The notes under the pieces were generated by a model. That model had not been told where the DNA came from, made no database searches, and worked only from the letters and a program-made list of their open reading frames with translations. Source: a virus. From it: a DNA stretch of 26,399 bases. This document shows positions 1,687 through 24,953 of the stretch, piece after piece. The translations under genes and the position numbers were made by a program. The stretch covers positions 1 through 26,399 of IMG/VR virus record IMGVR_UViG_3300045996_003913. One strand, given 5' to 3'. The first letter of the stretch is position 1, and every line of letters starts with the position of its first letter.

Positions 1687-1690
1687 GTCG

Positions 1691-2390: not shown

Positions 2391-3188
2391 TCAGTTCTCA
2401 ACAGGCTGTTGCACCGAGTCGATAATCAGCACCTCGACGGGTCCTGTCGTCCGTTTCAAAGTGAGCCCGAGTTCTTCTTCAAGGGCTGTATGCAAGGACG
2501 GCAGGTTTTGGCGGTCAACGAATGCCTGCACGGGTCCTGCGGACAGCACGACCGGACTGGCGAAGATAACCGTATAACTCCAGCGTCCCTCCAGCTCGGT
2601 CTTGTCGGTGACTATCGCTCCAAGAACCTCAGATGCCGTGGTCAAAATTGGCTGAAACGATTCACAAGACCCCATAATCGGAAACGGGTAGGCCCCGGCC
2701 GGCATTCGTATCGGCATTTCCGGAGGCGGGGCATTGCCGTCTACGCAGCGTGCAAGTTTTGGAGAAGTCCGGCCGGCCCGAACTAGCTCGTAGATGCGCA
2801 TGTCGCGTTGAACGCGGCGGCTCACGAGCTTAAAGCGGTCCTCTAGTAGCGACTGAGCCATCTCTCTTACCCGCTCTGGAGCCGATTCGCCTCCCGACCG
2901 CGCTTCGATTTGGAAGTAGTCGCGACGTATCCAGTCAGGCCCGTCAATGATTTGAAATGACTTTAGACCGTAAGCGAGCATTGCCAGCGACTCGACCGTG
3001 GCATGTGTAGCACTCAACACTCCGCCCGGACGAATCGTCGGGTCAGTTGTTGCGAGGTACTCTGACGGCACCGGTGCTCGCTGGCGCTTCACAGACGCCA
3101 CGTCAAATCTTGGCTTTGCTCCCTGAGCGGCAACCGCGCACCCGACGAGCAGTGTTACGGCGACCGCTACCACCACGGTCCGTGTCAT
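2391..3188 (-). CDS. TIGR03435-type exported protein (copy 1)
   Basis: A 265-residue protein with the hallmarks of the TIGR03435 'soil-associated' family: FDVASVK (28-34) just after the signal peptide, a PGG...ATVESLAMLAYGL stretch, LLEDRFKL (114-121), VTDKTELEGRW (193-203), ALEEELGLTL (235-244) and a closing VEVLIID (251-257). The N-terminus is an export signal; LVGC with C16 fits a lipobox, while the AAQG that follows could instead be a signal peptidase I site. The start at 3188 is chosen for its AAGGAG five nt upstream; the frame stays open 58 codons further but lacks a signal there. The family has no established biochemical role and is known mainly from acidobacterial chromosomes, so finding it between TerS and TerL on the opposite strand marks it as acquired cargo. 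By eye its base composition is less G+C-rich than the capsid genes. Confidence 0.9.
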   Translation of the reverse strand: MTRTVVVAVAVTLLVGCAVAAQGAKPRFDVASVKRQRAPVPSEYLATTDPTIRPGGVLSATHATVESLAMLAYGLKSFQIIDGPDWIRRDYFQIEARSGGESAPERVREMAQSLLEDRFKLVSRRVQRDMRIYELVRAGRTSPKLARCVDGNAPPPEMPIRMPAGAYPFPIMGSCESFQPILTTASEVLGAIVTDKTELEGRWSYTVIFASPVVLSAGPVQAFVDRQNLPSLHTALEEELGLTLKRTTGPVEVLIIDSVQQPVEN

Positions 3189-3264
3189 CTCTTCTCCTTG
3201 GCAAGCGTTCCGAGATGCTACCCGAAACGAACCCGAATGCCACAGCCTTTCACCAATCCATACC

Positions 3265-3372
3265 TTGACCCTCCTCGACCTGCTCCACCATCTGAACGCC
3301 CGCCTCGACCGGACCATCGCGACGCTCGACCGCGTCATCACCGACCTGAAAGCTCTCTCCACGCGTGACTGA
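3265..3372 (+). CDS. possible coiled-coil micro-protein upstream of TerL
   Basis: A 35-codon frame beginning with TTG at 3265 and ending in TGA at 3370-3372, overlapping the TerL GTG at 3365. The product is a leucine-rich amphipathic helix (LLDLLHHLNARLDRTIATLD) with heptad spacing, and its codons have strongly G/C third positions like the phage genes. No ribosome site is seen before the TTG. A rival frame begins at ATG 3237 and ends at the TerL start but is an improbable Pro/His/Arg-rich sequence. It may be a small packaging accessory protein or only a translated leader coupling into TerL. Confidence 0.35.
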   Translation: MTLLDLLHHLNARLDRTIATLDRVITDLKALSTRD

Positions 3373-4909
3373 CTCCGAACTCAAGGCCCTACTTGTTCAT
3401 CCCGACAAACAGGCCCGCACCGAGGCTCGGCACGAGCTTCAGCGTCGTGCCCTTGCTGACCCCACCATCGACGGGTACGAACTCGCGATTGAACGGAACG
3501 GCGAACGCATCGTGTTGCTGCGCCCGTGGCCGGAGCAGGTGCCGGCAATGGACCTGAGCACCAAGACGCTGTTCGTGCGCGGACCAAGAAATTCCGGCAA
3601 GACCGCGATTTGGCTCGCCATCGCCCATTTTCTGGCCCTGAGATTCCCCGAGTTCCGGTACCTCGTGGTTCGCCGCTCGCTGACCGAGCTTGAGAAACAG
3701 GTCCTGAACAAGATGCCGGAGCAGATGAAGCGGCTCACCGGCGATGCCAGCAACTACAACAAGACCACGCACACCTGTGTGTACCCGAACGGCAGTCTTG
3801 GCGTCTTCGGAGGCGCCGACAGCGAAGACGATGTCAAGAAAGTGGTCGGCAGCGAGTACCACCTGCTGATTGTCGATGAGGCGCCGGAAATCGACTTTGA
3901 ACTGCTGGTGATGCTTCGAGGCTCGGTGCGCTGTCCCGAGGACTATCCGTTCCGACCCATCACCCGGCTGCTCGGCAACCCGTTCGGCCCGTCGTGTGAG
4001 GAACTGTACGACTGGTGCGTGGACAAAACCGTGGACCGGGACAAGTACCCGGACTACGACGAGGCCGACCACGGCTCGGTGTTCTTGCCGATTGAAGCCA
4101 ATCTCAGCGTGGACGCGGTTGAGTACTGGAAACAGTTCGTCGGCCTCTCCGACCAGAAGCTTCAGGCGTGGAAGCACGGCAAGCGCGTCGATGCCGGGGC
4201 GCTGTTTGAACTGGTCCATGTCGTGACCGTGCCGCTCCCCGATGTGGGCACCGGCACGATGGTGGAGACGCGGCAGCCGTATCACGTCCTCGACAAAATC
4301 CCGACCTTTCAGGGCACGCCGGTTGACCGCTTGGACTTCGTGCGCATCGCGTGCGGCTACGACCACGGGTTCTCCGATTCCGACCCCGCGGTGATGCTCT
4401 GGGGCGCCTTGGTCGGCCCGCGCGTCATCATCTTTCACGAGCAGACGTGGCGAAAGACCGTCATCAAGGACATCTGCAAAGACATCGTCGAGTTCCGGGG
4501 TGACAGACAGGTCATCACCTACTGTGACCCGTCCCTGAACATCGACCAAGGCACCGGATTCACGCTCATCGACCACTTCGCGGTGCATCAGGTGATGCTG
4601 GAACCGGCCCGGAACGACCGCGAACTGTTCGTCACCATCGTGCAGGAAGCCCTCAACACCGAGGTTTCACCCGGTATGCCGCGGGTGCAAATCGTGCGTC
4701 AGTGCTGTCCCGAGTTGATGCGCACCTTGCCGAAGCAGCGCGGTAATCCGAACAATCCGCGCAAGCTGGCGGACAGCAAAACCGACCACTGGACGATTTC
4801 GCTCGGGTACCTGCTCATGGGACTCGGCCTGACCACCACGGAACAGCCCCGCCAGAAAGAAACCGACTACAACGACCTGTCACAGTTCAGGCCGTACCGC
4901 CCGCACTAA
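3365..4909 (+). CDS. terL: terminase large subunit (packaging ATPase and nuclease)
   Basis: A 514-residue DNA-packaging motor and genome-cutting nuclease that acts at the portal. The ATPase half has Walker A GPRNSGKT (73-80), Walker B LLIVDE (167-172, E172 as likely catalytic carboxylate) and a GNP motif at 204-206 typical of ATPase coupling. The RNase H-like nuclease half shows GYDHG (D333), TYCDP (D388) and a late acidic residue in SKTDHW (D475), which would form the metal triad. Length is normal for the family. The GTG start at 3365 lacks a clear ribosome site and overlaps the end of the 35-aa ORF, so it may depend on coupling. The scaffold-like gene follows after 21 nt. This is the most secure assignment in the window together with the major capsid protein. 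Confidence 0.95.
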   Translation: MTDSELKALLVHPDKQARTEARHELQRRALADPTIDGYELAIERNGERIVLLRPWPEQVPAMDLSTKTLFVRGPRNSGKTAIWLAIAHFLALRFPEFRYLVVRRSLTELEKQVLNKMPEQMKRLTGDASNYNKTTHTCVYPNGSLGVFGGADSEDDVKKVVGSEYHLLIVDEAPEIDFELLVMLRGSVRCPEDYPFRPITRLLGNPFGPSCEELYDWCVDKTVDRDKYPDYDEADHGSVFLPIEANLSVDAVEYWKQFVGLSDQKLQAWKHGKRVDAGALFELVHVVTVPLPDVGTGTMVETRQPYHVLDKIPTFQGTPVDRLDFVRIACGYDHGFSDSDPAVMLWGALVGPRVIIFHEQTWRKTVIKDICKDIVEFRGDRQVITYCDPSLNIDQGTGFTLIDHFAVHQVMLEPARNDRELFVTIVQEALNTEVSPGMPRVQIVRQCCPELMRTLPKQRGNPNNPRKLADSKTDHWTISLGYLLMGLGLTTTEQPRQKETDYNDLSQFRPYRPH

Positions 4910-4930
4910 CCCCGCCTCAGAAGGACCTTC

Positions 4931-6007
4931 ATGAACATCGACACCGCTCCCGCCCCCGCCGAATCCACCGCCGATACCTCTGAGTTCGACGCCTCACCGG
5001 TCAGCGATGACTCTCTTGCCGCGGAAATCCTGAGCGAGGCTGCCGGCGACACCGACAGCACCCCTGCTGCATCAGCCAACACGTCGTCGGCCGGTGCCAA
5101 CACCGCACCGATTGCCAACACCACGGTCGCCACAGCCGACACGAACGCGAATACGGCTGTTGCCAACACCGCGACGGCGAACACGACCGCGAACACGGCC
5201 GGCAGTGATGACGATTTCGCCAAGGTTCCGGCGAAGAACAACCGCGGCGGCGAAAACCGGCTGCCTCACAGTCAGGTGCAGCGCATCGTCGAACGTGAGC
5301 GCACCAATGCCCGCACCGCGGCGCTCGCCGAGCTTCAGCCCCGCCTCGACGAGTACGAGACGGAGCGACAAGGCTTCGCGCAGTTCGAGCAGGCCATCAC
5401 GGCAAATCCGGAAGGTGTGCTGAGGCTGCTGGTCCAGACGAATCCGGCGATTGCGCAGTATCTGGTCCAGCCGGGTCAGAGCAGCGCCAACACCGCCTCG
5501 GCGAACAACGACCCAATGCCCGGTCCGGACATCGAGCTTGGCAACGGCGCGCGCACCTACTCGCTCGAAGGGCTCCAGAAGCGTGACGAGTGGCTGATGA
5601 GACAGGCCGAGGCGCGATTCTCGGCTCGGTTCGCTCCTATCGAGCAGCGTGAGCGGGCCATGCAGGCGATTCAGCAGTCACAGCGGGAAGTGCACAGCAC
5701 GTACGCCGATGCACAGCAGAACTGGCCGGGCTTCAAAGAGCACGAGACGGAGATTTCCGCCGCATTCGCGGCCAATCCCCGGTTAACCCACAAAGACCTG
5801 CCGACTGTGTACCGAAAAGTGGTGTTCGGCAAGCTCGCACAGGGTCGTGACACGCTGCGCGCGGAAATCCTCAAGGAGATTCAGGGACAGCCCCGGAGCA
5901 CCAGTGCACCGGTTCAGACCGCAGGGCAGGTCCGAGATGAGAATCGGCCGCGCACCGACGACGACCTTGCGGCGGAAATTCTTCGGGAAGCCGGAGCGGG
6001 CCGATAA
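4931..6007 (+). CDS. putative scaffolding or capsid-assembly protein
   Basis: A 358-residue protein between TerL and the major capsid gene, the usual place for a scaffold. The start has AAGGA about 6 nt upstream. The N-terminal 95 residues are low-complexity, acidic and rich in Ala-Asn-Thr triplets (residues about 49-90). The rest is charged and predicted helical (QVQRIVERERTN, ALAELQPRLDEYETER), with more coiled-coil-like sequence around 220-300, as in scaffolds. A short motif is present at both ends: DDSLAAEILSEAAG (26-39) and DDLAAEILREAG near 344-355, and again at the C-terminus of the zinc-ribbon protein at 10794-11315. The terminal position of this motif suggests a docking peptide for capsid or portal. 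I see no protease motif, so a fused maturation protease is unlikely. Confidence 0.7.
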   Translation: MNIDTAPAPAESTADTSEFDASPVSDDSLAAEILSEAAGDTDSTPAASANTSSAGANTAPIANTTVATADTNANTAVANTATANTTANTAGSDDDFAKVPAKNNRGGENRLPHSQVQRIVERERTNARTAALAELQPRLDEYETERQGFAQFEQAITANPEGVLRLLVQTNPAIAQYLVQPGQSSANTASANNDPMPGPDIELGNGARTYSLEGLQKRDEWLMRQAEARFSARFAPIEQRERAMQAIQQSQREVHSTYADAQQNWPGFKEHETEISAAFAANPRLTHKDLPTVYRKVVFGKLAQGRDTLRAEILKEIQGQPRSTSAPVQTAGQVRDENRPRTDDDLAAEILREAGAGR

Positions 6008-6009
6008 TC

Positions 6010-6423
6010 ATGGCTCGCATCCCGCCTCCACCAGACCCCACGCTGCCGGCATCAACCACCAAGTGCCGATGCGGGTGTGGTCGATTCACGCACACCTATC
6101 GCGACTTCCGCGGCTCCATCAAAGAGACGAAGTACACGCACACCTGCTACTTGCGCCGCATCGACCGCCGCACCGGTCGGCCTCCGGGCCGTCCCTCGTT
6201 GCCGGCGCATCAGAAGCGGTCCGCGAGGGTCGTGATTCGTCTCACAACCGGCGAGCTACAACGATTGAAAGATATCGCGGCCAACCCCGACTACAACACG
6301 TCGGTCGCCGCGCTTATCACCAAGCTGCTCGACAAGACGCTGCTGACTCAGAGCCGCGTACAGGACGACGCCGAAGCCGGTGCCGCAAAACTCAGGTCCA
6401 TCCTCGAGAAACGCTGCACCTAG
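6010..6423 (+). CDS. DNA-binding-like protein: Cys cluster plus ribbon-helix-helix
   Basis: A 137-residue protein starting 2 nt after the scaffold-like gene. Residues 19-23 are CRCGC, with another Cys at 46 (HTCYLRR), a plausible metal site. A basic, Pro-rich linker (RTGRPPGRPSLP, which includes an AT-hook-like GRP pattern) follows. Residues about 72-111 have ribbon-helix-helix character: a beta strand ARVVIRLTTGEL, then two helices ending AALITKLLDKTL. RHH proteins bind DNA as dimers at palindromes. A regulator inside the capsid block is unusual; the 12-bp palindrome at 6453-6464 directly downstream is a natural candidate site for it. It could alternatively be a virion DNA-binding protein. 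Confidence 0.6.
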   Translation: MARIPPPPDPTLPASTTKCRCGCGRFTHTYRDFRGSIKETKYTHTCYLRRIDRRTGRPPGRPSLPAHQKRSARVVIRLTTGELQRLKDIAANPDYNTSVAALITKLLDKTLLTQSRVQDDAEAGAAKLRSILEKRCT

Positions 6424-6452
6424 TGTCACGGTTTCCGCGCATGGCGACTAAG

Positions 6453-6464
6453 TTACATCTGTAA
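6453..6464. promoter_or_regulatory. palindrome TTACA-TC-TGTAA
   Basis: A near-perfect 12-bp dyad with a 2-nt centre, A+T-rich in a G+C-rich genome, 30 nt after the RHH-protein stop and about 230 nt before the capsid start. It is a candidate operator, possibly for the RHH protein encoded just upstream. Binding is inferred. Confidence 0.3.
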
Positions 6465-6652
6465 GAGATACACATCTCGCAACCTCTCGCTGAGGCGAGT
6501 CGTACCGCAACTCGGTCGGCCACCGTCACAAGGCTGGTACGCATCGCAAGCAGCGAGCCCACCGACATCTTTGCTCCACCGGCTGGTCCCTCCGTTATCG
6601 GGCTGATGTTCGTCTGCGGGTCGGGTCATCGACACAGGACAAACAGCACTCC

Positions 6653-6672
6653 GCTCACCCTCCCCGGTGAGC
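6653..6672 (+). other. hairpin just upstream of the capsid ribosome site
   Basis: GCTCACC (6653-6659) pairs perfectly with GGTGAGC (6666-6672) around a CTCCCC loop. TAGGAG (6678-6683) follows 5 nt later, with the capsid ATG at 6695. There is no U-run, so mRNA stabilisation or translation control fits better than termination. Confidence 0.5.
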
Positions 6673-6694
6673 CCCGATAGGAGCAACGACCCTC

Positions 6695-7630
6695 ATGGCA
6701 CTTCCGTTTGAACAGGCACTGGCCCTGTCATTTCCCAAGGTTCTGAAAGAGCGCGACGGCGCGTACACCCAGTACGGCGCGACGCCCGTGATGCGGCTGA
6801 TGAAGGCGCAGGGCGGCATCGAGATGGTGGACGGTGGTCATGCGCTACAGCCCATCCTCGATTTTCAGGAGAATCCGGCCGCGGCCTTCCTCGACGCCAA
6901 GGGCGATTCCACATCCACGGCGCAGACCGAAGTGGTCACCAAGGCGCAGTACGAGTGGGCGCGTCTGGTTGTGCCGTACACGTACAACCTGTTCGACGAG
7001 CAGGACAACGCCGGCAAGGACGATACCCAGATTGTGAAGATGGCGCTGGCGCTATCTCGCAACGCGCTCAAGAGCTTCGACCGCAAGATTGAGCGGTACA
7101 TGCTCGGCACGACCGCCAACAACATGATTGGCATCCGTTCGCTCATCGCCGAAGACGGCACCGGCACCTTCGGTCAGGTGAACGCAGGCGTAGAGACGTG
7201 GTGGAAGAACCAGTTCGACGAGTACACGGACGGCAACGACATCGAGGCCAGCGTTCATACCGTCTACAAGGCGTGCGCGCGTGGCAACCCGGATTTCGAG
7301 CCCTCGATTCTCGTCTCGGGCAGCGACACGCACAGCACGTACGAGGCCGCGCTTGAAGAGCGCAAGCGATTCGTGGACGGAGACAAGGCCGTGTCCGGCT
7401 TCAACGTCATCGCGGTCTACAACGGCCGCTACGTCTACAGCGAATTCGGCACCGATTCCATCTTCATGTGGAATTCGCAGCAGACGAAGCTCTACGGACT
7501 TCGCAGCGGCTACCGCAAGCTGCGCCCCGGTATCGAGCACGTGAACTCAGGCAAGGTCACGGTTCGCATCCTCTCCTCGGTGCAGTTCCTGACCGGCAAC
7601 CGTTCGACGACGGGCGTCAGCTTCACCTAA
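6695..7630 (+). CDS. major capsid protein (HK97-like fold expected)
   Basis: A 311-residue protein in the size range of phage major capsid proteins. Its pattern is typical: an N-terminal segment with PVMRLMKAQGG, a middle helix-rich region (ALALSRNALKSFDRKIERYMLG), the IGIRSLI...GTFGQVNAG...WW sequence (residues about 148-170) that recurs in this class of capsid proteins, and a C-terminal FNVIAVYNGRYVY-type strand region. It would assemble the icosahedral head around the scaffold. It has a long structured leader and its own ribosome site (TAGGAG 11 nt upstream), consistent with high and independently controlled expression. A perfect hairpin follows its stop. The HK97 fold is inferred from family resemblance. 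Confidence 0.9.
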   Translation: MALPFEQALALSFPKVLKERDGAYTQYGATPVMRLMKAQGGIEMVDGGHALQPILDFQENPAAAFLDAKGDSTSTAQTEVVTKAQYEWARLVVPYTYNLFDEQDNAGKDDTQIVKMALALSRNALKSFDRKIERYMLGTTANNMIGIRSLIAEDGTGTFGQVNAGVETWWKNQFDEYTDGNDIEASVHTVYKACARGNPDFEPSILVSGSDTHSTYEAALEERKRFVDGDKAVSGFNVIAVYNGRYVYSEFGTDSIFMWNSQQTKLYGLRSGYRKLRPGIEHVNSGKVTVRILSSVQFLTGNRSTTGVSFT

Positions 7631-7647
7631 ACCCCGTTCGGTGAGTC

Positions 7648-7671
7648 GGGAAGCATCTCACGGTGCTTCCC
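7648..7671 (+). other. hairpin after the major capsid gene
   Basis: GGGAAGCA (7648-7655) and TGCTTCCC (7664-7671) form a perfect 8-bp stem with an 8-nt loop, 17 nt after the capsid stop. There is no clear U-run (AAACCCCTT follows), so it may stabilise the capsid mRNA 3' end or reduce read-through. Confidence 0.55.
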
Positions 7672-7704
7672 AAACCCCTTCACTTCCTGACAGGAAATCT
7701 CCCG

Positions 7705-8178
7705 ATGCCCTACTTCGTAGACACGGTGCCCACGGTTGGTGCACCTGCCGAAATTCACACCGAGCAGAAGAATCAGCTTGGTCTGGTGGCTCGCGCCAAC
7801 GACGGCAACGAGTACATCTACCTGCGCGGCGTGGCCTCGCTGGCCAATACCGATGTGGTCGTATTCGACGAGGCCGGTCAGACCGCGCGACTCGCCAACA
7901 CGAGCGTCGGTCCCATCGCCGTCGCCACGGCAGCCGCCAACGCGACCAGCTTCGCGTGGTTTGGTCGTAACGGCCAGTTCCCGGCCGCAGTGGACACGGC
8001 AGTGACCGACAACGGCAAGCTGTACATCGCCCAGAACGCTGGCGGTGGACAGGTCAATGCGACCGCAACGACCGGCGCACAGGTCATCGGCGCCGTGGCT
8101 CGCAGCACCGCCACAGCCAACGTTGCGACGGTACAGGTCCAGAACGCGTTCGTCGGTGTCGCTGACGCCATCGTCTAG
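7705..8178 (+). CDS. putative capsid decoration/head protein
   Basis: A 157-residue protein right after the major capsid gene. The ATG at 7705 is preferred over an upstream in-frame ATG at 7663 because AGGAA lies 8 nt before it and the upstream start falls inside the post-capsid hairpin. The sequence is Ala/Val/Thr-rich and beta-like throughout, with repeated hydrophobic strands (LANTDVVVFDEAGQTARLAN, VIGAVARSTA, VATVQVQNAFVGVA). This resembles capsid cement proteins, which bind the outside of the expanded head. Position and composition support the call; no diagnostic motif is seen. Confidence 0.6.
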   Translation: MPYFVDTVPTVGAPAEIHTEQKNQLGLVARANDGNEYIYLRGVASLANTDVVVFDEAGQTARLANTSVGPIAVATAAANATSFAWFGRNGQFPAAVDTAVTDNGKLYIAQNAGGGQVNATATTGAQVIGAVARSTATANVATVQVQNAFVGVADAIV

Positions 8179-8197
8179 TTCGTAACCAATCCAAAGC

Positions 8198-8216
8198 CCG
8201 CCGCGTATGTCGGCGG
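8198..8216 (+). other. GC hairpin after the decoration gene
   Basis: CCGCCG (8198-8203) and CGGCGG (8211-8216) form a perfect 6-bp stem around CGTATGT, 20 nt after the decoration-protein stop. There is no U-run. It is one of several hairpins in the capsid-module gaps. Confidence 0.45.
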
Positions 8217-8258
8217 TTCACCTTCAACCAGCAACCGACTCCAGAGAGGTTCTGCGTA

Positions 8259-8753
8259 ATGCCCAAGAACTCCGTTCCAGCCACAACCATTGTCGATGCC
8301 GAGCCAGCATCGGCACAGACCTACGTTCCGTCCGAAACCGCGCTTCTCGCCGATGCGCTGCGCAAGCAGGCGGAAGCGAATCTGTTGCAGGCCAAGCTCG
8401 AACAGGAACGACGCGCGGCGAACCCTCACAAGGTGAGCTTCGCCGAGCACGCGCGCAAGACCCGTTTCACCCCATATCCGTGCAAGGTGTATCAGAACGG
8501 ATTCGCGTGGCCGGACCGGTCCGCACGCGGCATGGACGATGCGACGAAGGAAAAGCTAGGCCAGCTTCGGTCCGGGCATTTCCTCAACGGCCGCGTCACG
8601 GTTCGCCGCGAAGGGGAAATCCTCTGCATCGACTATCCGTGGCAGGGCGCCGACAACCAGATTGCGAACATGAGCTACTTCACCAGTGACAGTGACCTGA
8701 TTCGCAAGCTCTGGATTGAACAGAACGCCACCGCGTCGGCACCGCGCGCGTAG
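8259..8753 (+). CDS. hypothetical structural-module protein
   Basis: A 164-residue protein, ATG at 8259 with AGAGG about 10 nt upstream. Residues about 26-55 form a charged coiled-coil-like helix (TALLADALRKQAEANLLQAK). A compact domain follows with conserved-looking aromatic and basic sequence (FTPYPCKVYQNGFAWPDRSA, then GHFLNGRVTVRREG). It lies between the decoration gene and an intrinsic terminator, so it closes the capsid transcription block. It may be a minor head protein or assembly factor. I do not recognise the family. Confidence 0.65.
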   Translation: MPKNSVPATTIVDAEPASAQTYVPSETALLADALRKQAEANLLQAKLEQERRAANPHKVSFAEHARKTRFTPYPCKVYQNGFAWPDRSARGMDDATKEKLGQLRSGHFLNGRVTVRREGEILCIDYPWQGADNQIANMSYFTSDSDLIRKLWIEQNATASAPRA

Positions 8754-8799
8754 TTCCACCCGCCTCTCACCAGCATCCATACGCGTCCCACGCGTCACA

Positions 8800-8829
8800 G
8801 GGCACAGCCAAGCGGCTCGTGCCCTTTTT
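8800..8829 (+). terminator. intrinsic terminator between capsid block and portal
   Basis: GGGCACAGCC (8800-8809) pairs with GGCT (8814-8817) and GTGCCC (8819-8824), with one bulged C and an AAGC loop, followed at once by TTTTT (8825-8829). The 10-bp GC stem plus U-run is the clearest rho-independent terminator in the window. It lies after the 164-aa gene and 21 nt before the portal ATG, so it should lower portal expression relative to capsid. Confidence 0.8.
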
Positions 8830-8850
8830 CTTCAAGGACCCACCCGCGGC

Positions 8851-10791
8851 ATGTCGGACCGGCTCAAAACGTTCAAGTCCAAAATCGAGTCCGCCAAGGC
8901 TCGCCGTCGCGAACTCGTCGCGGAGTGGCAAGAGAACCGGGAACGGCTCACCGCGCCGGCCGGGCGGGTCGTCGCGGAGCCGCAGAAGCGTCGCGCGATG
9001 ACCACCGATGCGACGCTGGTGAAGAAGAAGGCCAGCTTCCTCTACTCGCAGGTCCCTGAGGTTCGACTCACTGCGAAGCAAAAGCAGTACGAGCCTGCGG
9101 TTCCAGTCTTCGCGAAGTCACTCAACGACACCCTCAAGGAATCGGGTGTGGGCGCCGCGATGTACGAGGGCGTTCGTGACGGCCGCGTCGCCGGCATCGC
9201 CGCTGCGATTGTCACGTACACAGCAACCGCCGAGACGGTTCAGGTTCCGGCGCAGGACCCGCTCATGTGGGCGATGACTCGCCCCGGCGAGCCGGTCCCG
9301 ATGGTACCGGTCGAACGCGTCGCGGACAAAAAGTTCACCACCAAGCGCATCTCGCCTGCTGACCTGATTGTGGACGTGTCGTTCCGCGGGAGCGATTTCG
9401 ATTCGTGTCCGCTGCTCGGTCACACCGGCAAGCTGACATGGGCTGAGGCGAAGCGAACGTTCGGGCTCAAGGATGCGGACCGCACCAAGGTGTGCGGCAC
9501 CACCGACTCAGACAGTCTCGACCGGTTGAATCCGGACGATGTCGCGAATCGTTTCGACGAAGACGCGGCGATGGTCGAGTTCGACGAGATTTTCGTCAAA
9601 AGCTATCTGTTCGACGCGGGTCAGGTCCGATTCGACGCGATTCACCATCTCGTGTTCGTGAAGGGCCTCGACCAGCCTGTCGTTGACGAGCCGTGGAAGG
9701 GCCAGCGGTTCGACGAGAAGAGCCGCCGTTACGTCGGGGCCTGCCGTTATCCCATTCGGGTGCTCACGACCGATTATCAGTCCGACTCGGCGTATCCGGC
9801 CGCAGAAGTGTCGATGACCCGCGGTCAGGTCGATTCGCTGGCGCGGTCACGCTCCAACATGATGGAGCACAAGGAACACAACCGCCCGATTCGGACCTTC
9901 AACCCGTCGATGGTGGACAAATCCGTCAAAGACGCGTTGATGCGGGGCGACTGGCAAGGGCTGCTGCCCGTGCTCAACGTGGACCGCGCCTTTGGCGCCG
10001 TCCCACAGGTCAACTATCCGCGTGACGACCACGAGTTCGACGAAATCTATCGGCGCGAACTCGCCGAGTACTGGTCGTTGGGCGAGAACCAAGGCGGCAG
10101 CTTCGCACCCACCGGTCGCAGCGCCAGCGAAGCCACCATCGTACAGGCCAACTTCCAGTCGCTGATTGGACAGGAGCGCGGCCGTGTCGCGGATTGGTTC
10201 GTCGGCATCGCGGAAGTGATGGCCGGGCTGCTCGCGCTGTTCGGTGACTTCGAGATTCCGGAACTCAGCCCAGAGGACCAGAAGCGACTCGGCACGTGGG
10301 ACCGCGCGACGATTTCACAGCACGTGGTGTTCACGGTGCGCGCCGACAGCACCGTTGCCGTGGAAGCGCAGTCGCGGATTCAACAGTTGATGTCCATCCT
10401 GAACATCACCGCGAAGGCCCCGTACGTCAACTCCGCGCCGATTGTTCGCGAAATCGTCAGTCTCGCCGGGTTCGACCCGGAAGACCTGATGCAGGAGCCG
10501 CCGCAGGCAGCCCCTGAACCCGTCAACTTCTCGCTGCGCATCTCCGGTGAGGACCTGACCAACCCGATGGTGGTTGGCGCAATGGCCAAGCGCGGTCTGC
10601 TCCCGACCGGTCAGGAGATGGAAGACGCGAAGCTCGCCATTGCTGATGCGAAGACGCCTTCGCGCACGCCGATTGACCAGCTTCAGCAGCAGCCACAGCC
10701 GGGACCGGCGCCGGGCGCTGTGGACGAGCAGTTTCCGGACTGGAACACAGCGGCGCGCATTGACCGGCGCAATTCAGGGAGTGAGGGCTAG
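8851..10791 (+). CDS. portal protein
   Basis: A 646-residue protein forming the dodecameric ring at the DNA-entry vertex, the docking site of TerL and the tail. Supporting sequence includes an N-terminal charged helix (RLKTFKSKIESAKARRREL), central VAGIAAAIVTY strands, the RSRSNMMEHKEHNRPI segment, and near residue 410 the LGENQGGSF...SASEATI...R pattern characteristic of podovirus-type portals, followed by a long helix through QERGRVADWFVGIAEVMAG. The tail end is Gln/Pro-rich. The ATG at 8851 is chosen; an open extension to 8716 would overlap the previous gene and read through the terminator. The AAGGA is 13 nt upstream, a long spacing. Its place after the major capsid gene, instead of directly after TerL, is unusual. 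Confidence 0.9.
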   Translation: MSDRLKTFKSKIESAKARRRELVAEWQENRERLTAPAGRVVAEPQKRRAMTTDATLVKKKASFLYSQVPEVRLTAKQKQYEPAVPVFAKSLNDTLKESGVGAAMYEGVRDGRVAGIAAAIVTYTATAETVQVPAQDPLMWAMTRPGEPVPMVPVERVADKKFTTKRISPADLIVDVSFRGSDFDSCPLLGHTGKLTWAEAKRTFGLKDADRTKVCGTTDSDSLDRLNPDDVANRFDEDAAMVEFDEIFVKSYLFDAGQVRFDAIHHLVFVKGLDQPVVDEPWKGQRFDEKSRRYVGACRYPIRVLTTDYQSDSAYPAAEVSMTRGQVDSLARSRSNMMEHKEHNRPIRTFNPSMVDKSVKDALMRGDWQGLLPVLNVDRAFGAVPQVNYPRDDHEFDEIYRRELAEYWSLGENQGGSFAPTGRSASEATIVQANFQSLIGQERGRVADWFVGIAEVMAGLLALFGDFEIPELSPEDQKRLGTWDRATISQHVVFTVRADSTVAVEAQSRIQQLMSILNITAKAPYVNSAPIVREIVSLAGFDPEDLMQEPPQAAPEPVNFSLRISGEDLTNPMVVGAMAKRGLLPTGQEMEDAKLAIADAKTPSRTPIDQLQQQPQPGPAPGAVDEQFPDWNTAARIDRRNSGSEG

Positions 10792-10793
10792 AC

Positions 10794-14100: not shown

Positions 14101-14104
14101 AGCA

Positions 14105-18510: not shown

Positions 18511-18530
18511 GACAAGGATTGAGCACAGGC

Positions 18531-19439
18531 ATGGCAACCAACTACCCGACCGGCGAACTCCGCTACGACGCGCAGGGACGACGACTGCTCGACGAGGCCG
18601 ATGTGAAGCGCCTCGGTGGCGTCGCGTATCCGATGCTGATGAGAGACGGACGCGTCGCCAATTCGACGACAACTGCGGTGACGCTGCCTGCCGGATGGGA
18701 CGCCAGCGGCTACCTCAGTTCAAACCCAGACGTTCAGGCCCATTGGGACCAGAACATCAACGGGATTCAGTCACAGGTGCGCACCGCCGACGAATGGGCG
18801 CGTCGGCACTATGTCCAGCATGGGCAGGCAGAGGGCCGAATCGGTGGAGCGCCGGCTCCGAACGGAGGCTACGTGCCGTATCAGGCGCCGGCAGCCAACG
18901 CGGCTCCAGCCAGTGCGCAGCCCGCTGCGCCTTCGCAGACACAGCAACGCGCCGACGACCTGTACAACATCCTGAATCAGCGTGCGACACAGAGTCTCGA
19001 TGTGAGTCGCGATGATGCGGCCTTTCGTCCACAACGCGAAGCGTTCGCCGTGGCACAGGAGCGGGCCAGACGGGACTACCTCGCCGACATTGCGGAATCA
19101 TCGGGGCCGCTCGCGAACCTGCGAGGCGAACAGCGACTGAGCTTCGAACGCGCCGGTCAGAACATCGGCAGCTTCGAGGCGAACCTTGTTGCGACCGAGC
19201 TTCAACGGCGCCGTGACGAAATTGCCTCCGCGCTCACCATGCAGGCGCAGTTCCTCACCGCGGAACAGCAGCGAGAACTGACGGAACGTCTCGCCGAGAT
19301 GGACCGCGCGATTCAGTTGCAGCAGATGCAGATTTCGGATTCGCAGTTCGGCGCCCGCCTCGGCTTCGACCGCGAGCAGGCCGACCGCACCTACGACCTG
19401 ATGCGCCGGGGCCTCTACCCCGGCCAGCAGCAGGACTAA
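18531..19439 (+). CDS. internal virion protein with 'YLSSNPDV' module
   Basis: A 302-residue protein. ATG 18531 is preferred to an in-frame TTG at 18519, which would sit on top of the AAGGA ribosome site. Residues about 66-106 hold SGYLSSNPDV...HYVQHGQAEGR, a short helical module also seen in bacterial surface and repeat proteins as 'YLAxNPDV...HY...G..EGR'. A Pro/Ala linker follows (about 108-140). The C-terminal half is a long charged coiled-coil (FAVAQERARRDYLADIAE, ELTERLAEMDRAIQLQQMQI). Its place between fibre and Gly/Ala-rich protein fits the ejection-protein set of short-tailed phages. Function inferred. Confidence 0.65.
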   Translation: MATNYPTGELRYDAQGRRLLDEADVKRLGGVAYPMLMRDGRVANSTTTAVTLPAGWDASGYLSSNPDVQAHWDQNINGIQSQVRTADEWARRHYVQHGQAEGRIGGAPAPNGGYVPYQAPAANAAPASAQPAAPSQTQQRADDLYNILNQRATQSLDVSRDDAAFRPQREAFAVAQERARRDYLADIAESSGPLANLRGEQRLSFERAGQNIGSFEANLVATELQRRRDEIASALTMQAQFLTAEQQRELTERLAEMDRAIQLQQMQISDSQFGARLGFDREQADRTYDLMRRGLYPGQQQD

Positions 19440-19460
19440 GCCCGCAGATAGGAGAACGCA

Positions 19461-20096
19461 TTGGGATTCTGGTCAAACTTCGGAAGGATTGCCCTGATGG
19501 CCGCGCCGTACGTGGCGGCTCCGTTTACAAGCGGGGCGTCACTGGCTCTCATCGGAGCCGGTGCAGGCGCGGGGAGCGCGCTCGTCGGCGGTGGCGGGGT
19601 GAAAGAGGCCCTGCTCGGTGCGGGCATGGGAGCCATTCCCGGCGCCACGTCCGCGCTGTCAAAGCCGGCGCAGATTGGTGTGCAGGCCGGCACCAACGCG
19701 GGTGCCGGGTTGATTCCGACCAATCCGAGCAACATCGACGTGAACGCGGCCATTAACGGGCTGACGCCGAACCCGATGGCGGCATCAACTGCACAGCCCT
19801 CGTTCTTCTCCAGCATCGCGCGCAATCCAGAGGTTCTGAAAACCGCGTCAAGCGCCATCGCCGCGGCGACGCAGGCCGCTGGAAAGAACCGAAGCTCGTT
19901 GCGCGACGCCCAAATCGCTTCGTACGTCGCGTCGGGCGGCGGACCGAGCCCCGCATCGTCAAGGCTTCGCACACGAGCCTCTGACTTGGAAGAGGAACTA
20001 CTGAATCGGCTCACTCCCTCGTTCTGGGAGCGGTTCGGCACCTATGCTGCGCCGGCCGCAGCCATTTACGCCTCTACGCTTCCGACTCGAAGGTAA
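19461..20096 (+). CDS. Gly/Ala-rich internal virion (ejection) protein
   Basis: A 211-residue protein starting at TTG 19461, supported by AGGAG 6 nt upstream; no ATG or GTG fits better. The first 70 residues are hydrophobic and glycine-rich (ALMAAPYVAAPFTSG, SLALIGAGAGAGSALVGGGG), resembling proteins that insert into the cell membrane during DNA ejection. The C-terminal part is amphipathic with a charged LRTRASDLEEELLNRL segment. In podoviruses small hydrophobic ejection proteins form part of the trans-envelope channel. The assignment is by composition and neighbours. Confidence 0.65.
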   Translation: MGFWSNFGRIALMAAPYVAAPFTSGASLALIGAGAGAGSALVGGGGVKEALLGAGMGAIPGATSALSKPAQIGVQAGTNAGAGLIPTNPSNIDVNAAINGLTPNPMAASTAQPSFFSSIARNPEVLKTASSAIAAATQAAGKNRSSLRDAQIASYVASGGGPSPASSRLRTRASDLEEELLNRLTPSFWERFGTYAAPAAAIYASTLPTRR

Positions 20097-20101
20097 TCCC
20101 G

Positions 20102-21403
20102 ATGGCCCGAGACTACATCAATCCCGGCGCCGCGGCGGCTCAGAGCATCCTCACCATGCTCACCGAGCGCGCGGCACAGCAGCGGCAGGCCGAACTTGAC
20201 GCAATGAACCGCGCCAACGCGGAACAGACCCGTCTGGTTCAACAGCAGCAGATTGAGGCCAGCAAGGCGGCAATCGCTCGTGAACAGGAAGAGGCTACGT
20301 CTCTCCGCTCGCAGCGTGACGCAGGAACGGCCCTCAACAATCAGAGGCTCACGCTCGGAGTCTTGGACACTGTCTCGCCGGGAGCGAGCATCGACCCTGC
20401 GTTGGGCACTCGGATGCGCCGTGACGGTTTGACTCATCTGATTGGTCCGTATCGGCAGAGTGAGACGGCGAATGGACCGAGCGATGACCCGCGTTCGTGG
20501 GTCAACGAGACGTTCCGCGGCACGCCACAGCAGCAGGCGTTGCAGCAGATGCTCGATGACCCGAACACGCCCGACGCGGTGAAGCAGTACATGCAGGCGC
20601 GGTCGGTCGCGGGTGACGAGAACCTGCCGTATCAGATGTTTCAGCCACAGGTGGCTCAGACCACGCCTGTGGTCCGCGTCAGTCGTGACCGTCGCGGGAT
20701 TGAAACCTTCGTCGATGGCCAGTGGACTCCGGTGACTGGTGAAGTTCCGAAGGGCGCGCATTTCATCACCGAGCCGGCGCCGACCGGGCAGGTCACACAG
20801 GGTGCGGTGGACCGGCGCGTTGACAACTACCAGCGCCAGTTCGAGTCCAACGCCATCGTCAAACGATTTGCGACGCAGAACGAGGCCGAGGAATTCATCA
20901 ACAGTCTGGACCCACAGACGAATAATCCCGCCGACGACCAAGCGTTGATTTACGCCTTCGCCAAAGCAATGGACCCAGACAGCGTGGTGCGTGAAGGTGA
21001 GTACGCGACGGTGCAGAAGTATTCGCAGACGTGGACGCAGCGCCTGAAGGTCGATGTCAATCGCATCATCAACAACGACGCGTTTTTGACCCCGGACGCG
21101 AGACAGCACATTCTGGCCACGATTCGCGGCAAGGTGGCGTCGGGTCGCAAGTCGTATATCAACTTCCGCAACGAGTATGCGAAGAAGGTGAATCGCGCAT
21201 TGAATCTACCCGACGATGACCCGTCAGGTGCGAGCTACCTGACCGAGTTCGACACCATCTCACAGGGCCCGGAGCCGCGTCAGGCGCCTGCGTCAACGAC
21301 TCGCGTGTCTACACCGTCGCGCGTCACGTCGGCGCCGAAGCCAGCACCATCGGCGCAAGAGTTCGATTTCGTGCCCGGCAAGGGCCTCGTTCCTCGGAAG
21401 TAG
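20102..21403 (+). CDS. internal virion/DNA ejection protein (coiled-coil)
   Basis: A 433-residue protein with AAGGT 8 nt before the ATG. The N-terminal ~75 residues form a Gln/Ala-rich coiled coil (LTERAAQQRQAELDAMNRAN). The centre carries DDQALIYAFAKAMDPDSVVR followed by EGEYATVQ (residues about 280-310), a phrase that recurs in internal virion proteins of many short-tailed phages. The C-terminus is Pro/Ser/Thr-rich and ends VPGKGLVPRK. It would be packaged in the head and expelled with the DNA. I see no lytic transglycosylase motif, so any wall-opening enzyme must be elsewhere. Confidence 0.75.
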   Translation: MARDYINPGAAAAQSILTMLTERAAQQRQAELDAMNRANAEQTRLVQQQQIEASKAAIAREQEEATSLRSQRDAGTALNNQRLTLGVLDTVSPGASIDPALGTRMRRDGLTHLIGPYRQSETANGPSDDPRSWVNETFRGTPQQQALQQMLDDPNTPDAVKQYMQARSVAGDENLPYQMFQPQVAQTTPVVRVSRDRRGIETFVDGQWTPVTGEVPKGAHFITEPAPTGQVTQGAVDRRVDNYQRQFESNAIVKRFATQNEAEEFINSLDPQTNNPADDQALIYAFAKAMDPDSVVREGEYATVQKYSQTWTQRLKVDVNRIINNDAFLTPDARQHILATIRGKVASGRKSYINFRNEYAKKVNRALNLPDDDPSGASYLTEFDTISQGPEPRQAPASTTRVSTPSRVTSAPKPAPSAQEFDFVPGKGLVPRK

Positions 21404-21406
21404 TCG

Positions 21407-22852
21407 ATGCCTACGAAAGTCAATCTACCTGACGGACGTGTCGTGAACTTTCCCGACACGATGACGCAGGAACAAATCCTGACCGAAGTCGAAAAGCTGT
21501 CTGGCCCGGCGCCGACAGCGACGACCAGCGGTCCGCAGATGCGAGCCTACACCGCTCGCACGCAGTCTGAAGAGGACCCGTGGGGCTACACCAAGAAGTT
21601 CTTGGGCAACATTCTGCCGAGTGCGGGACGCGCCGGACGTGACACCGTGCTCGGCGTGCTGGCGCTCGGCAAGCAGGCGGCATCCGCTCCGGTCCAAGTC
21701 GTACAGGCTGCGATTAGTGACGACAAGACACTTGCCGATGTGGAGCTTGGTCAGACGCTCCGGAATCTGCCCGGCGCTGTGGTCCAGACCTACCGTGACC
21801 GGTGGGCTGACGACGAGGACCGTGCCCGGAACATTCGTGACGACCCGTTCGGGATGGCCTCAGACGGCGCGGCGCTCGTGTCCGGCATTGGGGCGACCCG
21901 CAACCTCGCACGTGCCGGGGTTCGCAACGTTGCGGCAGCAGCGGCCCCTGTGGCGCGTCGGGGCGCGGAACGCGCGGTGGTCAAAGCCTTCGAGGCCACT
22001 AGCGGCAAGACCAAGGCGATGGCCGAGAAGGCCACGCCGGCCATGCTCGACCAAGGCGTCAGGCCCCAGACCATTGGTCGTCTCGCAACGTCCGCCGACG
22101 AACAGGTCTCAACACTTGGCCAGCGGCTCGATGCGGCGTACCAGACGCACGGGCCGGTCAGCGTCGATACCAAGCCGATTCTGGACGAGATTCAGGTGGC
22201 GAAGCAGCGCGCGCTGGCCACGACCCCGTCAGGCAGTACCGTGCCTATCGCGGGTTCGGCGCTGCCAATGCTGGAAAGCTTGGAGGAGACCATCAGGAGT
22301 CTGGGTCCGACCACCACGGTTGAGAATCTTCGTAAGGTCAAGCAGGCGTGGGACGAAATCGCCTACGCCAAAGGACCTGCCGCGACCGACAACGTGCGAG
22401 CCGGGGCGTTCCGCGTCGGCGCCGATGCGACGCGTCGAACGATGGCCAACGCCGTGACCGAACTCGATGACCTGAATCGCCAGTACTCGCATCATCGCAA
22501 TGTGGCCGATGCGGCGCAGGCCACGGTCAACAGGCAATCACATCAGGGGCTCCGTCTGCGGGACTTGCTTGTCAGCGGTACCGGCGGCGGCATCGGCACG
22601 TTGCTTGGTGGCACCGCGCTTGGCGGCGGGGTCGGCGCGACACTCGCCGGAGGCGCGTACCGGTTCGGCACATCCACACCGGGTCGTCTCCTGCGCGGTC
22701 GTGTCTTGAACGACACGAGCCGCGGGCTGCGAGCTTTGGTGAATGCTCCGGCGATGTCCGGGCCGGCAATCTCGATTGGCCCTGTTGACTCTGCGCTGCT
22801 GGCGGAACTGCTGGCGCGACAGCAGGCCATTCAGGGCGAGGCAGGCCGATGA
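21407..22852 (+). CDS. internal virion protein with PDGR...FPD N-terminus
   Basis: A 481-residue protein starting 3 nt after the previous stop. The N-terminus LPDGRVVNFPDTMTQEQILT is a short domain found at the start of many phage internal virion proteins. Residues about 55-170 include a membrane-active-looking segment (RDTVLGVLALGKQAASAPVQ) and charged helices. Residues 190-370 are alanine-rich coiled coil. Near 385-415 comes a Gly-rich hydrophobic hairpin (LLVSGTGGGIGTLLGGTALG) suggesting membrane insertion. The stop overlaps the holin-like start (ATGA at 22849-22852), linking the last virion gene to lysis. Confidence 0.7.
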   Translation: MPTKVNLPDGRVVNFPDTMTQEQILTEVEKLSGPAPTATTSGPQMRAYTARTQSEEDPWGYTKKFLGNILPSAGRAGRDTVLGVLALGKQAASAPVQVVQAAISDDKTLADVELGQTLRNLPGAVVQTYRDRWADDEDRARNIRDDPFGMASDGAALVSGIGATRNLARAGVRNVAAAAAPVARRGAERAVVKAFEATSGKTKAMAEKATPAMLDQGVRPQTIGRLATSADEQVSTLGQRLDAAYQTHGPVSVDTKPILDEIQVAKQRALATTPSGSTVPIAGSALPMLESLEETIRSLGPTTTVENLRKVKQAWDEIAYAKGPAATDNVRAGAFRVGADATRRTMANAVTELDDLNRQYSHHRNVADAAQATVNRQSHQGLRLRDLLVSGTGGGIGTLLGGTALGGGVGATLAGGAYRFGTSTPGRLLRGRVLNDTSRGLRALVNAPAMSGPAISIGPVDSALLAELLARQQAIQGEAGR

Positions 22853-23085
22853 CGAGGCTCGAAATCGCCGCGCACGTGGCACGCACCAACACACTGCTCG
22901 AATCCATCGCGGCATCGCAAGAAAAGACCGAGCAGCATTTGGCTGCTCAGAACGGCCGCATCCGCAAGCTGGAATCGGCGCAGACCGAAACCCGAACCAA
23001 GCTGAGGGTGTACGCCGCGATTGGTGGCAGCGTCGGCCTGCTCGTGATTGGTGACCTGCTCCGTTACTTCGTCACAACGCTATGA
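22849..23085 (+). CDS. XhlA-like holin/lysis-accessory protein
   Basis: A 78-residue protein overlapping both neighbours by 4 nt. The N-terminal ~50 residues are a heptad-like coiled coil (LLESIAASQEKTEQHLAAQN), then one transmembrane helix at about 53-74 (VYAAIGGSVGLLVIGDLLRYF). This coiled-coil plus C-terminal anchor layout is that of XhlA-type lysis proteins, which work with a holin and endolysin. It could instead be a spanin-like anchor, but there is no lipoprotein partner. Membrane-bound in the infected cell. Confidence 0.7.
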   Translation: MTRLEIAAHVARTNTLLESIAASQEKTEQHLAAQNGRIRKLESAQTETRTKLRVYAAIGGSVGLLVIGDLLRYFVTTL

Positions 23086-23546
23086 GCAACACAGGCATCA
23101 CGCTGCTGACCCATTTCGAAAATTTCCGCGACACCGCATACAAGTGTCAGGCCGGAGTGTGGACCATCGGGTGGGGAACTACGCGCGTCGATGGCCAACC
23201 GGTCCGCGAAGGCATGACCTGCACGCGGTCACAGGCGATGCAGTGGAAGGCCGCAGACATCGCCGCCAGCGAGTCAGCATTGGTGCGTCTGCTGCCGAAC
23301 ATCAAGCTGGAACCGCACCAACACGATGCCGTGGTCAGCTTCATCTACAACTGCGGCGCGGGCGCGTTTGAATCCTCGACGCTGCGCAAGCGATTGCGCG
23401 CCGGGTTGCCGGTGCTAGAGCAGCACTTCACCGATTGGAACAAGGCACGCGTCAACGGCGTGTTGACAGTGTCGAAGGGCCTGACGCGCCGACGCAAGGC
23501 CGAATACCACCTGTTTACAACCGGCGCGCTCCGGTTTGATTTCTGA
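23082..23546 (+). CDS. endolysin, GH24 lysozyme-type muramidase
   Basis: A 154-residue phage lysozyme that would cut the beta-1,4 link between MurNAc and GlcNAc in peptidoglycan. The active-site region matches GH24: E13 in THFENF, C22 in YKCQAGVW at the position of the second catalytic residue (Cys in the E-C-T subtype), and T28 in VWTIGWGT. The usual Glu-Gly is Glu-Asn here, a small departure. Later family features are QHDAVVSFIYNCGAGAF and RRRKAEYHLF. There is no signal peptide or SAR helix, so release depends on a holin. It lies between two holin-like genes; ATG overlaps the preceding stop. Confidence 0.9.
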   Translation: MSNTGITLLTHFENFRDTAYKCQAGVWTIGWGTTRVDGQPVREGMTCTRSQAMQWKAADIAASESALVRLLPNIKLEPHQHDAVVSFIYNCGAGAFESSTLRKRLRAGLPVLEQHFTDWNKARVNGVLTVSKGLTRRRKAEYHLFTTGALRFDF

Positions 23547-23554
23547 GACACGAC

Positions 23555-23965
23555 ATGGCACTTCTCGACTTTCTCAACATCGGCTCGAAAATCATCGACA
23601 AGGTGATTCCGGACCCGCAGGCCAAGGCCGAAGCCTTATTCAAGCTGAAGGAGCTTGAACAGGCTGGTGAACTGAAGGTGTTAGACGCCGACCTTCAGAT
23701 TGCGTTGGCGCAGGCGGACATCAACAAGGCCGAGGCGACCGACCCGAACGCGTTCCGCTCCGGATGGCGTCCAGCGGTTGGGTGGGTCTGCGTCGTCGGA
23801 CTGGCGTACACGTTTATCTTGCAGCCACTGCTGTCATGGGCATCCGGTGTCTGGAACATCCCGGCGCCTCCACCGCTCGACATGGGCGACCTGTTCACAC
23901 TCTTGGGCGGCATGCTCGGATTGGGCGGTCTGCGCACGTTCGAGAAGTTGAAAAAGGTGGCTTAG
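23555..23965 (+). CDS. 3TM-type holin (GTA holin family)
   Basis: A 136-residue membrane protein of the 'holin of 3TMs, for gene-transfer release' type. It has an N-terminal amphipathic helical region with a DPQAKAEALFKLKELEQ segment, the recurrent FRSGWRPAVGW motif (about 67-77) just before the first clear membrane helix (VCVVGLAYTFILQPLLSW), and a second helix around 105-127 (LFTLLGGMLGLGGLRTF). It would make the membrane lesion that releases the endolysin. Its start is 8 nt after the endolysin stop with only a weak GAG ribosome site. Confidence 0.85.
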   Translation: MALLDFLNIGSKIIDKVIPDPQAKAEALFKLKELEQAGELKVLDADLQIALAQADINKAEATDPNAFRSGWRPAVGWVCVVGLAYTFILQPLLSWASGVWNIPAPPPLDMGDLFTLLGGMLGLGGLRTFEKLKKVA

Positions 23966-24048
23966 TGTTACAGCCACTCGACCCATTGGACACCAAGCGG
24001 ACGTTGCTCCCACGAGTTGCAGCCCTGCCGCTGGCAGGTGCGCGTTAG
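23965..24048 (+). CDS. possible 27-aa micro-ORF after the holin
   Basis: A GTG at 23965 overlaps the holin stop as TAGTG, the same junction used at 11313-11317. The frame gives 27 residues (MLQPLDPLDTKRTLL and on) and ends inside the final codons of the convergent TIGR03435 gene. It has no ribosome site of its own and no recognisable feature, so it may be a chance extension. Confidence 0.25.
   Translation: MLQPLDPLDTKRTLLPRVAALPLAGAR
24024..24038. other. short GC hairpin at the convergent gene junction
   Basis: CCTGCC (24024-24029), loop GCT, GGCAGG (24033-24038) is a perfect 6-bp stem between the rightward lysis cassette and the leftward second TIGR03435 gene, where a terminator is expected. 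No U-run follows on either strand, so termination is only plausible. Confidence 0.35.
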
Positions 24049-24860
24049 TCAGGCGTAGGTCGCTCGACTCTATCCAGTACCACTACGCTCATACGTTCAC
24101 GCCGGGGTTCCAATCGCAGCCCGAGTTGTTCTCGTACCGCGCTGAAAATTGAGACGTTGTCCGTATCAGATTGAGTACTCAACGACGCCTCGACGAATCG
24201 CAGCGTTATCTCGTAGTAACCGTCCAGTCCTGTGCGGTCGATAACCTTGCGTCCGGCAGCGCCAGAGATGGTGCCTGCGAGGCTCGACATCGGCACCCCA
24301 CCCGCCATCATCGCGGCGTCGGTCACCCGTATTCCGCAGGGTGGCGCTCCGTTTGATGGCGCCGGGAGCTGCTCAACCGACCGTCGCTGCTCGCGAGCGG
24401 CGTTGAAAGCGGCGCAATCCAAGGGTGAGCGCCGGAGTTGAGGACCGAGGCGGCCATCGGTGCTGGCGAGCACCATCACATAAACGTCGCGCTCTGCAAA
24501 CTCAGAGTGAACCGTCAGCTTGAAACGTTCAGAGAGAAGGGCACGCAGCATCGCCTGCCTCTGCTCCAGCGTGGGAATTACATTCGTCGTTGCGACCACG
24601 TCAAAAGTCTCCTTCGACATCCAATCTGGCGCTCCTAGTAGCTCGCCCGTGTCGCTTGGGTAAGCCGCCGCGATGAGGGAGTGGACGAAGCCGTTGGTCA
24701 TGACGAACCGCCCTCCTTCCCATCGCATGCTCATCCCCGCACCGTTCGCCTGAGCCCGCCGAACCGAAGCCGCTTCAAATCGCATCGAACTTGTCTGGCC
24801 GTGGACAGTCACATAGGACCAGAATTGGGCAATTAGCAGAATTGTCAGCAAGACACGCAT
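24045..24860 (-). CDS. TIGR03435-type exported protein (copy 2)
   Basis: A 271-residue protein with the same family landmarks as copy 1 in the same order: FEAASVR (28-34), a GGRFVMTNGFVHSLIAAAY stretch, LLSERFKL (108-115), VIDRTGLDGYYE (206-217), AVREQLGLRL (241-250) and a closing VVVLDRVERPTPD. The signal peptide (MRVLLTILLIAQFWSYVTVHG) has no lipobox, so a signal peptidase I-processed exported protein is expected. The start at 24860 is chosen for GGAAGG 9 nt upstream. Outside the motifs it differs greatly from copy 1, so the two are not a recent duplication. It lies just after the lysis genes, on the opposite strand and with its own divergent upstream region, a typical moron position. The family's biochemical role is unknown. 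Confidence 0.9.
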   Translation of the reverse strand: MRVLLTILLIAQFWSYVTVHGQTSSMRFEAASVRRAQANGAGMSMRWEGGRFVMTNGFVHSLIAAAYPSDTGELLGAPDWMSKETFDVVATTNVIPTLEQRQAMLRALLSERFKLTVHSEFAERDVYVMVLASTDGRLGPQLRRSPLDCAAFNAAREQRRSVEQLPAPSNGAPPCGIRVTDAAMMAGGVPMSSLAGTISGAAGRKVIDRTGLDGYYEITLRFVEASLSTQSDTDNVSIFSAVREQLGLRLEPRRERMSVVVLDRVERPTPD

Positions 24861-24953
24861 GGGCACCAACCTTCCGCCCCATTTGACGCGGTTAACATCC
24901 ACGTGGGTGCGCCGCCCACCGCAGTGACCCAATCGGAACACCTAAATCACTGC
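24861..24953. promoter_or_regulatory. divergent intergenic region
   Basis: This 93-nt gap separates the divergently read TIGR03435 copy 2 and the nuclease gene, so it must carry at least one promoter unless transcription enters from farther away. A TTGACG occurs at 24883-24888 and an 8-bp palindrome CCACGTGG at 24899-24906. No matching -10 could be assigned with confidence. Confidence 0.35.

Follow-up and report, generated by a model that had tools for sequence, protein, structure and literature searches.

Two TIGR03435/DUF3738 genes in a phage genome, best read as moron cassettes

RESULTS

Two members of the TIGR03435/DUF3738 family in one phage record

We found that two genes in the genome of a soil phage, here named DUF_A and DUF_B, are genuine members of the TIGR03435/DUF3738 family and are best read as moron cassettes, i.e., acquired cargo genes. 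The window, by which we mean the whole stretch of DNA that was analyzed, is a complete IMG/VR record of 26,399 bases; an end repeat was looked for, and none was present. The features are listed in Table 1.

Table 1. Features of the 26,399-base window
Feature	Position	Strand	Length (aa)	Remarks
Probable terminase small subunit (TerS)	about 240-665	+		Weak PHROG match
Putative lipoprotein	686-1093	-	135	Signal peptide with Cys by eye; DUF_A cassette; low codon score
Two small predicted membrane ORFs	1483-1828	-		Hydrophobicity by eye; DUF_A cassette
DUF_A	2391-3188	-	265	TIGR03435/DUF3738 protein, probably exported
Terminase large subunit (TerL)	3365-4909	+		Divergent from DUF_A
Major capsid protein	6695-7630	+		NF033394
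Portal/head-tail adaptor-like	8851-10791	+		phrog_332; start codon by eye, ORF listed from 8716
Endolysin	23082-23546	+		Phage_lysozyme
Holin	23555-23965	+		GTA_holin_3TM; convergent with DUF_B
DUF_B	24045-24860	-	271	TIGR03435/DUF3738 protein, probably exported; AF2 model
RusA-like resolvase	24903-25412	+		Divergent from DUF_B

In the profile search, DUF_A matched TIGR03435 with an E value of 1e-42 (146.5 bits) and DUF_B with 3.9e-49 (167.5 bits; curated cut-off, 40), and each alignment covered nearly the entire 241-position model. The Pfam profile DUF3738 (PF12543; cut-off, 22) was also matched by both proteins (DUF_A, E = 1.5e-36, 126.7 bits; DUF_B, E = 3.3e-43, 148.4 bits), and the identical family search in 14 control genomes gave no match. 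The first-pass annotation of this DNA had proposed the family from motifs, with a failed profile match as the result that would speak against it. Its coordinates and motifs were right, and both matches lie far above the cut-off. The family positions F28, P78, W80, R112, F113, L115, D208, T210, G247, L248, and P268 are kept in both copies, while DUF_A departs from conserved residues at G76D, D87Q, H118R, and G211E (DUF_B numbering). No Cys column is conserved in the family, and the strongest polar columns (R, D, T, and H) form no recognized catalytic motif, a pattern that fits a binding domain.

Both proteins begin with a segment that, judged by eye, resembles a signal peptide, and the start of DUF_A contains a lipobox-like LVGC, a possible lipobox (also by eye). 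Export of both proteins, as stated in the first-pass annotation, is therefore probable. Upstream of DUF_A there is a good ribosome-binding site (AAGGAGA). DUF3738 was the sole domain found in the two proteins, which matched neither the PHROG profiles, including those of virion and lysis proteins, nor the PADLOC-DB models of known anti-phage defense proteins.

Position and composition of the two genes

Both genes are leftward, as described in the first-pass annotation, and run antisense to a rightward structural operon, where they are placed at gene borders. DUF_B, which forms the second cassette, is located behind the endolysin and holin genes. The first cassette, comprising the putative lipoprotein, the small membrane ORFs, and DUF_A, sits inside the packaging module, in the TerS-TerL interval. 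Thus, the view that the copies lie on either side of the packaging-structure-lysis block holds for DUF_B but not for DUF_A. The putative lipoprotein had no Pfam, PHROG, or PADLOC match.

The base composition of the two genes is unlike that of the phage core. Their GC3 values (DUF_A, 0.613; DUF_B, 0.651) are lower than that of every rightward phage gene (0.773 ± 0.033 for 19 genes) and of every 268-codon stretch of those genes, and their codon scores are the two lowest among all genes tested. Strand could contribute partly to the contrast, although the other leftward genes of the window have a GC3 of 0.71 to 0.82. Chromosomal family members from the class that holds the best relatives have a median GC3 of 0.787. 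By composition, DUF_A and DUF_B are thus foreign to the core of the phage, which is common among morons. Another gene of the window, at 25297-25857, encodes a predicted membrane protein with a weak DUF4345 match; its codon usage is also unlike that of the phage core, and it is possibly another cargo gene.

In lambda, bor is leftward and located directly behind the lysis genes, and the same is true of DUF_B. Like bor and lom, the window genes are leftward phage accessory genes with an exported product (predicted in the window). In the window, by contrast, there are two copies, and the leftward cassette that separates TerS from TerL is larger; no sequence relation to bor or lom is claimed. In many cases, accessory loci of the moron type are antisense to lytic genes and active in lysogens; bor and lom are examples of expression in the lysogen (PMC7067206). 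Based on the antisense position at gene borders, outside the logic of the lytic operon, and on the foreign composition, both copies are best read as moron cassettes. Promoter consensus scans upstream of DUF_A and DUF_B revealed no clear leftward promoter, and no integrase was recognized in the 26-kb record.

Carriage by a second, unrelated phage

IMG/VR was scanned with single-protein queries, with family alignments, and with a DNA pattern, and INPHARED and PLSDB were searched by tblastn. The single-protein queries, namely DUF_A, DUF_B, and the TerL of the window, gave nothing, and hence no close relative of the window phage was found with TerL; the scans with the family alignments A1 and A2 were also empty. 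The DNA pattern for VxDxTGLxGxY[DE] detected one further record, IMGVR_UViG_3300047160_027829 (L142), which was found again, with nothing else, by the family alignment A4. INPHARED and PLSDB contained no family member by tblastn. The motifs of the A1, A2, and A4 scans and of the DNA pattern jointly match 98 of 136 chromosomal members. This estimate of sensitivity is rough and biased upward, since one of these motifs had served to recruit part of the members. Common carriage of the family by phages was not supported by these searches.

The L142 record comprises 4,054 bases. Its DUF3738 gene is cut by the contig end, so that the C-terminal 174 aa of the protein are encoded. On a single strand, this gene is followed by genes for a probable TerS, a GpA-type TerL, gpW, and a lambda-family portal; it is thus located directly upstream of the terminase genes and co-oriented with them. 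The terminase family differs from that of the window phage, and L142 belongs to an unrelated lambda-type phage. The GC3 of its DUF3738 gene is 0.651, as compared to 0.757 for its TerL gene. For comparison, 79 other IMG/VR phages with a related TerL were fetched via the L142 TerL, and examination of their DNA, which extended at least 1.5 kb upstream in 50 of them, revealed no DUF3738, a pattern in line with a moron in L142. We conclude that phage carriage of DUF3738 is rare, cargo-like, and present in at least two unrelated phages, and that DUF3738 adds a new family to the cargo of phage morons.

In the relatives of L142 with DNA upstream of TerS, that site holds other cargo. A ParB_N/DNA-methylase gene with confirmed domains is found there in L151 (similar ORFs are present in L150 and L152), and L154 encodes there two small proteins that look exported and belong to no known family.

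The neighborhood of DUF_B raises the question of whether a late-expressed structural or lysis-associated protein, such as a secreted lysis helper, was recruited instead of a lysogeny gene. DUF_B adjoins the endolysin and holin genes, and the L142 copy is co-oriented with the terminase genes; the window copies, however, are antisense to the late operon and match no virion or lysis PHROG, and we consider such a late role improbable.

Origin and divergence of the phage copies

The two window copies share 28 to 29% identity over their full length. This strong divergence, pointed out in the first-pass annotation, excludes a recent duplication. No chromosomal member found exceeds 43% identity to a window copy, and with all three phage copies considered the maximum is 43 to 48%. 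In the tree, the three phage copies were placed apart with modest support; long branches were seen (1.15 and 1.39 versus a median of 0.5). The nearest members to DUF_B belonged to a single Acidobacteriota class, that of genome G323, while DUF_A had no firm place. In AU tests, a single clade of all three phage copies was disfavored (P = 0.03), but a single origin of the two window copies was not rejected (P = 0.10). Of the two courses proposed in the first-pass annotation, separate acquisition or long divergence, the trees favor separate acquisition, which appears likelier than one old duplication but is not proved. No close TerL relative was detected in 396 Acidobacteriota genomes, and in the PHROG matches listed for 103 neighbors of chromosomal copies no phage structural family appeared that would indicate a prophage.

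An assembly chimera of host and phage DNA was named in the first-pass annotation as a case that would refute phage carriage. The family is chromosomal and the composition of the two genes differs from that of the phage core, as such a chimera would predict. However, each copy is flanked by phage genes on both sides, so that the assembly would have had to join host and phage DNA several times, each time at a clean gene border, the window copies are at most distantly similar to the chromosomal members found (see above), and L142 is an independent instance. We regard a chimera as very improbable.

The genes could also be plain cargo, that is, host genes that were acquired by recombination, confer no present benefit, and are heading to decay. 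The host-type family, the foreign composition, the rarity in phages, and the long branches are in line with this. Yet two full-length open copies are kept in one small genome, the family motifs and the signal-peptide-like starts of both are intact, DUF_A is preceded by a good ribosome-binding site, and a second unrelated phage has a copy beside its terminase genes. Mere passengers therefore seem rather unlikely.

DUF3738 in Acidobacteriota chromosomes

The first-pass annotation described the family as mainly acidobacterial. Consistently, all 46 matches in genome_contigs were titled Acidobacteriota, with one exception titled Phycisphaerae (L004). Over 3.6 kb, this contig shares 99.2% identity with a contig of Bryobacteraceae (L003), and it is probably mis-binned. 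Family matches above the cut-off were present in 37 of 396 sampled Acidobacteriota genomes, a survey in which a scoring cap bounded the number of matches per genome. The family is massively expanded, with up to 122 matches within one genome and 29 in Terriglobus roseus DSM 18391.

Among 10 long DUF3738 proteins that were scanned, 8 combined an M56 (BlaR1) peptidase with DUF3738, and one had the order CarboxypepD_reg-TonB_C-DUF3738. In the BlaR1-type M56 proteins DUF3738 is the C-terminal domain, and directly upstream of many of them there are BlaI-like ORFs. Penicillinase_R was the commonest neighbor family (6 of 103 neighbors). Most of 123 stand-alone chromosomal DUF3738 loci showed neither M56 nor BlaI, which speaks against the sensor link; 23 did have M56 or BlaI, and many had only 3.7 kb of DNA. 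Some stand-alone genes are located directly downstream of M56 in BlaI operons. The best-scoring genomes for DUF_B in the 396-genome sample, G323 (42%) and G094 (41%), have stand-alone DUF3738 matches in operons of BlaI, M56 (with or without DUF3738), and DUF3738. In other Acidobacteriota genomes, DUF3738 stands behind a domain of the redoxin/AhpC-TSA type that bears the motif WCAPC or WCxPC.

The simplest reading of the fusions to M56, TonB_C, and redoxin together with the BlaI operons is that DUF3738 serves outside the cytoplasm as a sensor or partner domain. The statement that the family has no assigned function is literally correct, and TIGR03435 or DUF3738 was not mentioned by name in the open-access full texts searched; the domain fusions and operons, however, point to BlaR1-type envelope sensing.

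One acidobacterial contig contains a tight leftward operon of BlaI, M56-TonB_C, TonB_C-DUF3738, BlaI, M56-DUF3738, and DUF3738 (L231:9313-16862). The TlpA-like redoxin-DUF3738 fusions (L225:3038-4342, L226:4002-5309, L227:3389-4660, and L229:3476-4726) come from genomes with otherwise few or no TIGR03435 matches.

A possible role in envelope sensing

BlaR1 senses beta-lactams via its C-terminal extracellular domain (PMC7593790). In the host relatives, DUF3738 occupies the place of this sensor domain in BlaR1/MecR1 M56 sensor proteases, behind a BlaI-like repressor. In contrast to BlaR1/MecR1, the window proteins have neither an M56 protease nor a membrane part, and DUF3738 matches no penicillin-binding sensor domain in Pfam. 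No M56 peptidase domain was found in the window proteins, and the window contains no BlaI or M56 ORF. Relative to the family, the window copies share the full-length match above the curated cut-offs, the signal-peptide-like start, and the motifs; they differ in being phage-borne and stand-alone, in their GC3 below that of the structural genes, and, for DUF_A, in the loss of several conserved residues.

From the BlaI/M56 operon setting of the family, we infer that phage DUF3738 may act on the ligand or partner of the host sensors. We tentatively propose, as the likeliest of the mechanisms considered though short of an even chance, that the phage encodes exported homologues of the sensor domain, which either compete within the BlaI/M56 envelope-sensing circuit of the host or retune it. 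In an acidobacterial host, DUF_A and DUF_B would reach the periplasm or outer membrane and would bind the same ligand or partner as the host M56-DUF3738 sensors, either competing as soluble decoys or mimicking a stand-alone DUF3738 partner. The BlaI regulon could thereby be retuned during lysogeny or late infection, and the lysogen or the phage might gain from the altered regulon. More generally, the phage copies probably alter the envelope of the infected cell or its sensing.

The main rival to this sensor-circuit proposal is an envelope-acting moron that works apart from BlaI/M56, with a bor-like surface effect or superinfection exclusion, in which a receptor is masked or DNA entry is blocked. 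Phage-excluding lipoproteins and membrane proteins encoded by prophages are known (PMC3952083, PMC10883804), and the likely export, the bor-like position, and the putative lipoprotein alongside would suit such a function. On the other hand, no PADLOC model was matched, and in chromosomes, where the family is expanded to such an extent, phage exclusion is unlikely to be its main task. Surface modification or exclusion of other phages, raised in the first-pass annotation as a benefit, is possible, but nothing found here points to it specifically, and we see in it a weak possibility.

Returning to the proposed action on the BlaI/M56 circuit, a bolder version holds that Acidobacteriota phages recruited a BlaR1-type sensor domain at least twice and export it as a decoy or agonist that hijacks this envelope-stress circuit. 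We consider this version doubtful. If true, bacterial signaling would be intercepted at the ligand of the sensor and not inside the cell. The interest of the phage DUF3738 genes rests on the proposed link to BlaR1-type sensing, and the single-domain phage versions, together with the BlaI-M56-DUF3738 operons, open the role of a large and so far unexplained family of Acidobacteriota to direct testing.

Structure model of DUF_B

The AF2 model of DUF_B had a pLDDT of 86.8 and a pTM of 0.76, and its C-terminal half alone had a pLDDT of 83.1. Neither the model nor this half gave a meaningful match in PDB or BFVD (best E values of about 0.6 to 1.4; VIA Z of at most 3.0). PBP5 and OXA-48 were rejected as fold relatives, their Z scores of 2.2 to 2.6 being at noise level. 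An STN/secretin-N-like repeat in DUF3738 was dropped, since the two halves matched each other only weakly and the structure searches lent it no support; a search for STN (PF07660) retrieved a single locus. When the N-terminal and C-terminal halves of the domain in the protein encoded at window:24045-24860 were compared by hhalign, they aligned with a probability of 40% and an E value of 3e-4, and an internal duplication within the DUF3738 domain is possible.
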